Made by a program: the position numbers and the translations under genes. 32,736 nt of DNA from Synergistaceae bacterium (lineage in GTDB: Bacteria; Synergistota; Synergistia; Synergistales; Aminobacteriaceae): NCBI GenBank assembly GCA_031272035.1, contig JAISUO010000006.1, forward strand, positions 1 to 32,736. The letters run 5' to 3'. The notes under the pieces were generated by a model. The model was not told the DNA's origin. It searched no databases and was given only the letters and a program-made list of their open reading frames with translations. Below, one piece after another: positions 29,428 to 32,482 of the stretch (the stretch's first letter is position 1; each line of letters starts with the position of its first letter).

Positions 29428-30028
29428 CGGCTGTGCAAATAATATTTATCAACTGGCTGGACAGGTAAATTCAGATATTCGAATTGTCCGAAATGATCGA
29501 CTGGAAATGGAAGATATTCAGAGGATGGCCCCTTCCCATATCATCATCTCCGGAGGAAGCGCCGCACCGGAAATGGCCGGAAACGGGATGGATACTGTAA
29601 GAACTTTTGCCGGGCGGATTCCGATTCTGGGAATTTGTCTGGGCTATCGAATCATCTGCGCCGTTTACGGCGGTAAATGCACTCAAATGGAAAAAATTAT
29701 GCAGGGAAAACGCTCTTTGGTCAAAACAGAACATGCATCCGACCTCTTTAACGGAGTGCCAGACGCCTTTTATGCCGGATTTTATCATTCCTGGACCGTT
29801 TTGGAAAAAGACATTCCTGAAAGCTTCCACATCATCGCCAGAAGCGAAGACGACGTCGTTGGAATTGCGCATGGAACATTGGCCATTTTCGGATTGCAGT
29901 TCCATCCGGAATCCTTTCTCTCCGAGTATGGAGAAGTAATTTTGCGAAATTTTTTGCAGATGCGCCCAAACGGACAGCCTGACTCCGGCTGCGGAGTCGA
30001 TGACTTCAAATTTCCGGCTTCATCTTGA
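29402..30028 (+). CDS. Divergent TrpG-type glutamine amidotransferase
   Basis: This is a 208-residue class I glutamine amidotransferase. The catalytic triad is present: Cys79 in GICLGY, His168 and Glu170 in FHPESF. It should supply ammonia to the TrpE-like partner, whose gene it overlaps by 26 bases. Unusual points: the oxyanion-hole loop SPGPG reads SGGSA (50-54), CLGHQ reads CLGYR, and the opening DNYDSFTYN reads DNYDGCANN. About 20 extra residues form the C-terminus. GGAGG precedes the ATG by about nine bases. Glutaminase activity is possible, but the lost PGPG loop is a warning. Confidence 0.85.
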   Translation: MILLIDNYDGCANNIYQLAGQVNSDIRIVRNDRLEMEDIQRMAPSHIIISGGSAAPEMAGNGMDTVRTFAGRIPILGICLGYRIICAVYGGKCTQMEKIMQGKRSLVKTEHASDLFNGVPDAFYAGFYHSWTVLEKDIPESFHIIARSEDDVVGIAHGTLAIFGLQFHPESFLSEYGEVILRNFLQMRPNGQPDSGCGVDDFKFPASS

Positions 30029-30053
30029 CAAAGGGACTTCTTCGGTTTATAAA
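30025..30053 (+). promoter_or_regulatory. Strong promoter before the DAHP-synthase leader
   Basis: A perfect TTGACA (30025-30030) and TATAAA (30048-30053) are separated by 17 bases, the optimal sigma70 spacing. It overlaps the stop codon of the trpG-like gene and makes the downstream pair an independent unit. Confidence 0.75.
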
Positions 30054-30087
30054 TTATTTCATTACAGGTGGAAGAGGTATTGAAGAT

Positions 30088-30192
30088 ATGGCGTTGTACC
30101 AGGCGGCAGTTCAGGGAAACAGCTTTTATGTCGTGGGGTTCTCCTTTAGAAGCACAGATCTCGGTTTGCAGGAGATCTGTGCAGTGGGTTGA
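30088..30192 (+). CDS. Small leader ORF (34 residues)
   Basis: ATG 30088 has AGAGGT (30073-30078) nine bases upstream, and the frame ends at TGA 30190-30192. The middle reads NSFYVVGFSFRSTD, with three Phe and one Tyr codon in eight positions just before a strong hairpin. A Phe/Tyr leader peptide would suit the downstream aromatic genes. The segment GFSFRSTDLGLQE also resembles the start of glutamyl-tRNA reductases, so a degraded gene fragment is an alternative. Confidence 0.4.
   Translation: MALYQAAVQGNSFYVVGFSFRSTDLGLQEICAVG
30152..30182 (+). promoter_or_regulatory. Leader hairpin
   Basis: GCACAGATCTC (30152-30162) and GAGATCTGTGC (30172-30182) pair perfectly over eleven bases around a nine-base loop, inside the small leader ORF and directly after its Phe codons. 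No T-run follows, so it is a pause or regulatory stem rather than a terminator. Confidence 0.7.
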
Positions 30193-30247
30193 TGACCCCG
30201 GGTTGTCGCAGCTAAAAAAACAGGACAACAAAGCACATATTGAATGT

Positions 30248-30281
30248 AAAGCCGGGATTCGAAAGGGGATCCCGGCTTTTT
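30248..30281 (+). terminator. Intrinsic terminator in the leader (putative attenuator)
   Basis: AAAGCCGGGAT (30248-30258) pairs with ATCCCGGCTTT (30269-30279) over eleven bases and is followed by T residues. It lies 35 bases before the DAHP-synthase-like start and downstream of a promoter, so read-through must be controlled or partial. Confidence 0.88.
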
Positions 30282-30315
30282 AATTGAGTTAATAATATCT
30301 AACGGGGGGCTTGGA

Positions 30316-31335
30316 ATGATAATCATACTGAAGCCGGAAGCTACGCAGGAACAGATCGATTCTGTCAAAAACGAGATGGCGCAAAAGAAGATTCTGGCTC
30401 AGGAAATACAGGGTGAAACCGCCAGGATGATCGGGCTTGCCGGCGACATATCCGCTGTTCCCGTCGATATGCTGACTCGCCGCGAATATGTGGAACGGAT
30501 CGTCAGAGTCTCCGAGCCGTACAAACTTGCCGGTCGGCATTTTCATCCTCAGGATACCGTGGTGGAGCTGCCCGGCGGTCAAAAAATCGGAGGAGGAAGT
30601 CTCGCCGTCATTGCCGGCCCCTGTGTAGCGGAAAACGAGGAACAGATTCTGTCCATCGCGCGGGATGTCAAACTTTCCGGTGCGGATTTTTTGCTGGGAG
30701 GGGCCTTTAAGCCTCGCAGTTCGCCTTATTCATTCCAGGGACTCGGATTGAAGGCTCTGCCTCTTTTGAAAATTGCCCGTGAAAAAACAGGATTACCCAT
30801 CGTTACCGAGATTGTATCCCAGGAACACTGTGAAATTTTCGCGGCGGATGTCGACGTCATCCAGGTGGGGGCGCAAAATATGCAGAATTTTCCCCTGCTG
30901 ATGGAAGCGGGCAGAATTGGAAAACCCGTCATTCTGAAGCGAGGTCCCTCCTGCACCCTTGATGAAATGCTGCAGGCAGTGGACTATATTCTCCGAAGCG
31001 GAGGAAGCCAGGTCGTCCTCTGCGAGGGAGGAATTCGTACCTTCGAAACGGCGACTCGAAATACTCTCGACCTTTCTGCCGTGGCGATTCTTAAAAAAAG
31101 ATCGCATTTGCCGGTTATTGTGGACCCCTCGGACGGAACGGGACGCTGGGACCTTGTCGTTCCCATGGCGACGGCAGCGGTAGCGGCAGGGGCGGACGGC
31201 CTGTCAATCGAAGTCCATAACCAGCCGGAAAAAGCGCTTTGTAACGGTCAGCAGGCTATAACGCCTTTTCTTTTCAACCAGCTGATGCAAAAAGTTAAAA
31301 AACTGCATAACTTCAAATTAAATTCAGAAGCGTAA
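30316..31335 (+). CDS. DAHP synthase-like protein (type I-beta) with altered active site
   Basis: The 339-residue protein has a ferredoxin-like regulatory domain (about 1-70) and a TIM-barrel aldolase domain (about 85-330), like the Thermotoga-type DAHP synthase that condenses PEP and erythrose 4-phosphate. Conserved parts include GPC (101-103), KPRSSPYSFQG, QVGAQNMQNF, LKRG, RTFE and IEVH. Of the four metal ligands expected at C102/H272/E298/D309 of the Thermotoga enzyme, Cys103 and Glu299 are kept, while the others are Asp273 (VDPSDG) and Asn310 (CNGQQ). ERG of the phosphate site reads EGG (237-239). Activity may be altered or lost. A leader with a terminator precedes it. Confidence 0.85.
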   Translation: MIIILKPEATQEQIDSVKNEMAQKKILAQEIQGETARMIGLAGDISAVPVDMLTRREYVERIVRVSEPYKLAGRHFHPQDTVVELPGGQKIGGGSLAVIAGPCVAENEEQILSIARDVKLSGADFLLGGAFKPRSSPYSFQGLGLKALPLLKIAREKTGLPIVTEIVSQEHCEIFAADVDVIQVGAQNMQNFPLLMEAGRIGKPVILKRGPSCTLDEMLQAVDYILRSGGSQVVLCEGGIRTFETATRNTLDLSAVAILKKRSHLPVIVDPSDGTGRWDLVVPMATAAVAAGADGLSIEVHNQPEKALCNGQQAITPFLFNQLMQKVKKLHNFKLNSEA

Positions 31336-31354
31336 AAAAATGGAGGAGAATAAA

Positions 31355-32482
31355 ATGATCAGCAGGGAACGACTGAACCCTTTGCGTAAGCGCATCACCG
31401 AAATCGACAGCCAGCTCATACCGCTTTGCGCGGAACGGATGAAAATTGCCCGGGAGGTGGCGATGGTTAAAATTGGAGAAAACATGGCCATTCTGGACGA
31501 AAATCGTGAACAGGAGGTTGTGGAGCGCGCCCTCGCCCTTGCAGACGGAGAGCTGAAAAGTGAAATTTCTCTGTTGATGCGCTCTATTTTGGCCCTGTCG
31601 AGAAAACATCAGCGCAGCCAAATGCTGCAGGGCGCATCGTCGTTACTGCTTCCGGCGCGCCCGTCCGTCCGCGAAAACGTCACCTGTGCCTTTCAGGGAG
31701 CGCCCGGCTCCTGGAGCGAACAGGCCCTGATAAAACTCTTTCCGGAGGCGTCCCGTCTGCAGGTCGACCTTCCCGAAGACGTGTTCCTCGCTGTAAAAGA
31801 GGGACGTGTGAATTACGGCGTTATCGCCATAGAAAACTCACAGACAGGGGCCATAGGGGAAACCTACGACCTGCTCAGGCAATATGGCTGCTTTATCGTC
31901 GGACGTACGGAAATAGAGATTCGTCAGTGTCTTTTGGCTCCTCAGGGAACAAAACCTGCAGACGTCCGCAGGGTTTTTTCTCATCCTGACGATTTCAAAC
32001 AGTGCGGACATTTTCTGAGAGACCGCGCCTGGGATCTGACCGCCTGCCGGGACACCGCCGAAGCGGCGAAAATCACCGCCGAAGCCAATGACAACCGAAC
32101 CGCGGCCATCGGTTCCCAATACGTCGCTCAACTCCATAACCTCACGGTGCTCGTTTCGGACGTCATGGATTCTGAGGATAACCGGACGGCTTTCGTCGTC
32201 ATTGCCACGGCGCCGGAATACGACGAAAGCTCCAACCTCATCTCCATCACTTTTTCGACGGAACACCGCGCCGGAGCGCTCTGTGAAACGCTGATGCCCT
32301 TCATGGCTCAGGGCATCAACCTGAGAAGAATAGAATCCCGACCTTCTTCAGGACCCGACAGTTATCGTTTTTTCGCGGAACTTGAGGGCAATATTCTGAA
32401 CGCCGACATGGTCTCGACCCTGCAACAGGCAATGGCCTCCTGCAGATACCTGGAGGTCATCGGCTGTTATAAAAGCGTGTGA
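31355..32482 (+). CDS. pheA: Bifunctional chorismate mutase / prephenate dehydratase-like protein
   Basis: The 375-residue protein has an AroQ chorismate mutase domain (1-90), a prephenate dehydratase-like domain (about 108-285) and an ACT domain (about 293-372). Mutase residues Arg11, Arg28, Lys39, Asp48, Arg51 and Glu52 sit exactly as in E. coli PheA, so this activity looks intact. In the dehydratase part IENSQTG, SHPDDFKQC and DTAEAAK are kept, but the catalytic TRF motif is Thr278-Ala279-Phe280. The ACT domain keeps GALCE and ESRP, the Phe-binding motifs. ATG 31355 has GGAGG eight bases upstream; ATG 31340 is possible. It follows the DAHP-synthase-like gene directly. Confidence 0.9.
   Translation: MISRERLNPLRKRITEIDSQLIPLCAERMKIAREVAMVKIGENMAILDENREQEVVERALALADGELKSEISLLMRSILALSRKHQRSQMLQGASSLLLPARPSVRENVTCAFQGAPGSWSEQALIKLFPEASRLQVDLPEDVFLAVKEGRVNYGVIAIENSQTGAIGETYDLLRQYGCFIVGRTEIEIRQCLLAPQGTKPADVRRVFSHPDDFKQCGHFLRDRAWDLTACRDTAEAAKITAEANDNRTAAIGSQYVAQLHNLTVLVSDVMDSEDNRTAFVVIATAPEYDESSNLISITFSTEHRAGALCETLMPFMAQGINLRRIESRPSSGPDSYRFFAELEGNILNADMVSTLQQAMASCRYLEVIGCYKSV

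Follow-up and report, generated by a model that had tools for sequence, protein, structure and literature searches.

A putative ribosome-mediated attenuator with a covarying antiterminator precedes aromatic amino acid genes in Synergistaceae

The window analysed here is a stretch of 32,736 nucleotides from a Synergistaceae bacterium (assembly GCA_031272035.1, contig JAISUO010000006.1), and two consecutive forward-strand genes within it are the predicted targets of the leader described below. The first (30316-31335) had been called DAHP-synthase-like from its sequence, and profile searches agree, since its product scores 443 bits against NF006421 (cut-off 335) and 355 bits against TIGR01361 (cut-off 268), as expected of an aroF-type DAHP synthase. 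The second (31340-32482) is a predicted chorismate mutase/prephenate dehydratase gene, pheA; its product matches NF007910 with an E-value of 3e-54, under the curated cut-off, and PF00800 above the cut-off (G000:C6:31688-32212). Genes resembling trpE and trpG lie upstream of the leader. Although the window thus holds trpE, trpG, aroF and pheA, we did not find aroC, or a clear aroA, in the source genome, an assembly estimated to be 98% complete. This reflects either an assembly gap at the shikimate operon or a genuine loss.

Between these gene pairs, on the forward strand, lies a compact leader (30025-30315). It opens with a sigma-70 type promoter, TTGACA (30025-30030), a 17-nt spacer and TATAAA (30048-30053), which an exact-match scan found nowhere else in the window and in none of 100 shuffles; its spacing is optimal. 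A purine-rich stretch, GGAAGAGG (30070-30077), is the likely ribosome-binding site already proposed for the leader ORF, and its counterpart in the leaders of relatives is AAAGGAGG. The ORF itself has 34 codons (30088-30192, ATG at 30088, TGA at 30190-30192), encodes MALYQAAVQGNSFYVVGFSFRSTDLGLQEICAVG and has in-frame counterparts in homologues. The Phe and Tyr codons reported for it are indeed present, five in number (Tyr4, Phe13, Tyr14, Phe18 and Phe20), and we regard Phe13/Tyr14 (30124-30129), Phe18 (30139-30141) and Phe20 (30145-30147) as the candidate control codons. The last two frame a Phe-Ser-Phe (FSF) block that ends 4 nt upstream of the segment we call S1 (30152-30167). The 5′ part of S1 (30152-30162) forms a perfect 11-bp hairpin with S2 (30172-30182); the preliminary description had noted this hairpin correctly but placed it abutting the ORF, whereas it lies inside, at codons 22-32. 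Downstream stands the expected intrinsic terminator, a 13-bp stem of S3 (30248-30260) and S4 (30267-30279) closed by a loop, plus five T residues (30277-30281), with a folding energy of -22.9 kcal/mol (z -5.3) and an end some 35 nt before the aroF ATG at 30316. The fold of the whole leader has a z-score of -4.5, reached by none of 200 shuffles. We consider the leader, with its promoter, ORF, hairpin and terminator, confirmed as real; it is kept at about 60 other loci, which puts the unit far beyond chance.

These loci were found in several ways. Searching 61 related genomes at the DNA level showed the same leader before pheA (G001), aroB (G022), aroA (G010) and tyrA (G026), the gene names in relatives being read from sequence unless profile-scanned. 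Six copies were used to build a covariance model, which yielded about 60 strong matches, in two families, among 188 phylum genomes. Some genomes have two to four; the window's own genome has one. The matches were fetched and re-scored, and 63 leaders were kept. Weaker matches, below about 30 bits (L072, L075, L076, L078, L080 and others), were judged false; one weak match (G158:C137; L079 2415-2535, minus strand) carries a candidate leader, MNKNYYFSFIRS, and a sodium/solute-symporter-like gene follows it. GTDB was also scanned, independently of the model, for an exact pattern, and of the 32 records obtained 30 were Synergistaceae, Synergistes or Caccocola. The two outside this group, from Edaphobacter and Bacillus, are about the number estimated for chance, and no leader was evident by eye in their surroundings; with the single copy in the window's genome, this led us to reject a mobile element. 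A comparable promoter precedes 59 of the 63 leaders, with a spacer of 17 in 56.

The next gene belongs to aromatic (shikimate, Phe or Tyr) biosynthesis in 18 of the 63 loci (aroF, pheA, aroB, aroA or tyrA) and is phenylacetate-CoA-ligase-like in 36; the nine in neither class include an MFS-type transporter, identified by reading, and a tryptophan-dehydrogenase-like protein. In one genome (G020) the leader is followed by a DUF262-like gene, so called by reading and its product without an NCBIfam match, and then by aroB, aroA, aroC, aroK-aroE, aroF and pheA, so that the leader heads a shikimate operon with one inserted gene. This protein of 703 amino acids (G020:C40; L113 601-2712) would, from its position between attenuator and aroB, fall under aromatic control.

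The preliminary description had proposed comparing covariance across relatives as a check, and we did so by counting pairs on a MAFFT alignment of the 38 distinct sequences. All three helices considered, S1:S2, S3:S4 and an alternative S1:S3 that had previously been missed, show covariation. S1:S2 is paired in 95.9% of cells and shows both-sided changes at 7 of 11 pairs, and S3:S4 is paired in 95.7%; together the two helices have both-sided changes at 14 of 22 pairs. The alternative helix joins S1 to the 5′ arm of the terminator (30157-30167 with S3 in the window), and its pairing was not used in building the covariance model. S1 is complementary to S3 in 63 of 63 leaders, and the helix is paired in 91.7% of cells; sliding it lowers the figure to 25-68%. 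At 6 of its 12 pairs both sides have changed (for example CG 16 / UA 12 and CG 16 / UA 11). Its covariation score is 0.261 compared with 0.208 after shuffling (0 of 500 shuffles), and the summed energy of each S1 with its own S3 is -1131 kcal/mol compared with -887 (sd 24; 0 of 5000) when S3 is permuted among loci, a mean loss of 4.5 kcal/mol per locus; kinship of the sequences inflates both the shuffle and the permutation statistics, but the slide control, in which relatedness is retained, points the same way. Nested inside S1:S3 is a further helix between S2 and a segment S2′, whose lower half (TGTGC 30178-30182 with GCACA 30233-30237 in the window) is well supported, being paired in 80.6%, while the upper half (GTTGTC 30202-30207 with GACAAC 30224-30229) is paired in 61.7% and belongs to part of the family. 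The nested antiterminator is the minimum-energy structure when folding begins at 30158, the bases up to 30157 having been removed. We also looked by eye for a trp-style S2:S3 pairing, which was unsupported. By these sequence comparisons the leader has a predicted terminator and a mutually exclusive antiterminator, supported by covariation.

Such a device fits poorly with an independent gene for a small RNA or small protein with no cis effect on aroF. The promoter and terminator of its own would suit such a gene, but the next gene in most of the 63 loci is a same-strand aromatic biosynthesis or ligase-like gene, and the 5′ arm of the terminator coevolves with S1, something for which an ordinary terminator has no need. 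On these two grounds we reject this explanation, which we find scarcely credible.

The codons ahead of S1 point to what is sensed. Nearly all 63 leaders carry an FSF or a Tyr-Ser-Tyr (YSY) block, the first codon being TTC or TTT in 57 of 63 and TAC in six, and the third TTT in 56 and TAT in six; the change from FSF to YSY occurs as a unit in six loci. In the leaders of biosynthesis genes 31% of the eight codons before FSF are Phe or Tyr, against a background of 6.3% (p ~9e-20), so these leaders carry what appear to be control codons for the amino acid made downstream. The ligase leaders, with 7%, show no enrichment. The nucleotides of the FSF block are conserved beyond what the codons require, UUCUCCUUU(A) being nearly invariant. 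We noted that UUCUCCUUUA (30139-30148 in the window, and in homologues), conserved in this way, is complementary to the AAAGGAG-type Shine-Dalgarno sequences of relatives' leaders; pairing of the block with the leader's own Shine-Dalgarno sequence has a suggestive mean energy of -8.2 kcal/mol in relatives but a weak one of -4.4 in the window, and we set it aside as evidence. It is possible that this pairing adds control of leader translation.

The near invariance of these nucleotides could also be read as the mark of a protein- or metabolite-binding leader, in which the choice between S1:S2 and S1:S3 is made by some factor besides the ribosome, the ORF being incidental; in the folding model described below most homologues can form S1:S3 with no ribosome present, as such a leader would allow. 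However, the start codon, the ribosome-binding site and an open frame through S1 and S2 recur in homologues, the FSF-to-YSY change takes place as codons, and neither the window nor ten homologous loci matched an Rfam family at gathering score. We judge a binding leader very unlikely.

Our preferred explanation, at a probability of about 0.86, is transcription attenuation mediated by the ribosome, with charged Phe-tRNA as the signal (in many relatives, Phe and Tyr) and aroF-pheA as the genes under control. That a translated leader brings about attenuation had been suggested at the outset, and the conserved ORF and terminator, the covarying antiterminator, the fixed codon spacing and the fitting genes support it. 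Sequence analysis shows the parts and how they are conserved, the alternative helices with their covariation, and the spacing of codons; we infer a transcription start near 30060, translation of the 34-codon ORF, stalling and regulation. While S1:S2 stands, or while a ribosome moves through S1 and S2, the terminator S3:S4 would form and transcription would stop. Under a shortage of Phe-tRNA the ribosome would stall at the FSF block, above all at Phe20, and its leading edge would cover the lower part of S1 and break S1:S2. The remainder of S1 could then pair with S3, and S2 with S2′, so that the terminator would be blocked and aroF-pheA transcribed. A weak point of the proposal may be the leader's five aromatic codons only; enterobacterial pheL has more.

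The spacing was examined with a masking model in which 30 nt are hidden per ribosome position, codon by codon, and the transcript is folded up to S3. In the window the modelled S1:S3 value is 0.04 without a ribosome; placing Phe13 in the A site raises it to 0.40, at Phe18 it is about zero, and it reaches 0.84 at Ser19 and 0.77 at Phe20. One codon beyond it is 0.54, and then it stays near zero through S1 and S2. These values place the second Phe of the FSF block inside a predicted switch-flipping window of two or three codons. The same model also gives about 0.8 for S1:S3 when the ribosome waits at the stop codon, where S1 is free for S3, and fast ribosome release must therefore be assumed. For most homologues it has S1:S3 as the favoured pairing at equilibrium with no ribosome present, and in these the order of folding must matter.

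The value at the stop codon would also suit nascent-peptide arrest of the TnaC type, where a conserved leader peptide lies near an aromatic-metabolism gene. Here the peptide FSFxGxxPxxxGICA would sense an aromatic compound and halt the ribosome near the stop codon, freeing S1 for S3, and aromatic abundance instead of shortage would switch the genes on, as would suit the ligase genes if these are catabolic. The peptide is also highly similar among ligase leaders, which have little Phe or Tyr outside FSF (7% over the last eight codons). However, the residues conserved downstream of FSF fall on S1 and S2, so that the RNA alone can explain their conservation; the C-terminal ends of the peptide differ in length and sequence; and induction by abundance would make no sense for aroF, pheA, aroB, aroA or tyrA. 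In contrast to TnaC-type systems, the leader combines an intrinsic terminator and a covarying antiterminator with candidate control codons at a fixed distance from the switch helix. We therefore consider peptide arrest unlikely, and return to the attenuator that responds to charged tRNA.

If starvation does switch the ligase genes on, their products would be anabolic rather than catabolic, since control by starvation is odd for a catabolic ligase and sensible for salvage of arylacetates to Phe and Tyr. The six YSY loci all precede a second phenylacetate-CoA-ligase-like paralogue, and six genomes have the two in tandem, the YSY leader with the second paralogue lying 1.6-1.8 kb downstream of an FSF leader with the first. 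The ligase-like proteins score under the curated PaaK cut-off. Of the 29 genomes with ligase leaders, 17 yielded no chorismate synthase, four of the 17 being at least 96% complete, and IorA-like proteins occur in nine of nine genomes checked, above the curated cut-off in eight. We suggest, tentatively and at less than even odds, that the ligases with FSF or YSY leaders are under the same attenuator and make Phe or Tyr from arylacetates, the ligase acting with an indolepyruvate ferredoxin oxidoreductase run reductively. The missing chorismate synthase and the IorA-like proteins fit this proposal and do not separate the two directions. If it is true, the leader codons reveal the substrate of each ligase, and the swap from FSF to YSY between tandem leaders would let sequence predict the aromatic acid for each enzyme; the question bears on whether these ligases make or break down aromatic amino acids in gut synergistetes.

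Rfam searches of the window gave no leader family at gathering score and no T-box match, and at E-values up to 5 only chance-level matches (mir-254 and two Bacteroides sRNAs); the ten homologous loci were likewise without a family, T-box included. The leader belongs to no Rfam leader family tested, as the first reading of the sequence, which recognised no riboswitch, T-box or standard leader, had held. In the open-licence literature on leader peptides or attenuation in Synergistetes and Synergistaceae we found neither a description of this family nor a published leader-peptide attenuator for Synergistota; for synergistete his genes a HisR repressor was reported, not attenuation (PMC9413887). 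The uORFC-13-1 motif shares with our leader a promoter, a short ORF with one or more Phe codons and a terminator before a DAHP synthase gene, and is known from Acholeplasma and environmental sequences only, with 24 representatives, all before aroF (PMC8632094). The same idea is embodied by two unnamed uORF candidates that are associated with shikimate genes and have Phe/Tyr codons (PMC6429828, Fig. 6b); the five genomes of that study include the synergistete Thermovirga lienii, and as its text does not give the candidates' source genome, overlap with our family is possible.

Leaders of other kinds occur in the phylum. In the window's genome a separate leucine leader, MTKRLRMHLCTLNFSLLLLGLYVNADSLFFEPALFDA (LLLLGL), with a terminator precedes leuA (G000:C39:14202-14315; L149 215-328), and we count its presence in favour of the attenuator before aroF. 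In the three leucine loci tested, the part of the ORF beyond the Leu run pairs, at -17 to -21 kcal/mol, with the 5′ arm of the terminator. The leucine leaders of relatives read LLLGLCxHADSLF, and a second type, LLLGCRFPPGTPAA, is found in other genera. A methionine-rich leader, MTRRIDMMMCSMMMCGV, with a terminator (G040:C15; L011 ~1390-1540) stands before a gene that by eye resembles a methionine-transport substrate-binding protein. With the aromatic family, the leucine leaders and, probably, methionine leaders in one phylum, ribosome-mediated attenuation seems to be widespread in Synergistota.

The enterobacterial trp, phe and his attenuators (Trp_leader, Phe_leader and His_leader) combine a translated ORF, a first hairpin and an antiterminator that competes with the terminator. 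The leader described here resembles them in its short ORF with putative control codons, its hairpin, its mutually exclusive antiterminator and terminator, and its amino acid biosynthesis genes. It differs in that S1 and S2 both lie within the ORF, and in that one RNA family serves aroF, pheA, aroB, aroA, tyrA and ligase-like genes. Whereas the trp attenuator pairs segment 2 with segment 3, here the 5′ arm of the first hairpin, S1, is predicted to pair with the 5′ arm of the terminator and to enclose S2:S2′, so that the topology departs from the textbook trp scheme. Our best reading is thus a known mechanism, ribosome-mediated attenuation, in a new RNA family with a topology of its own.
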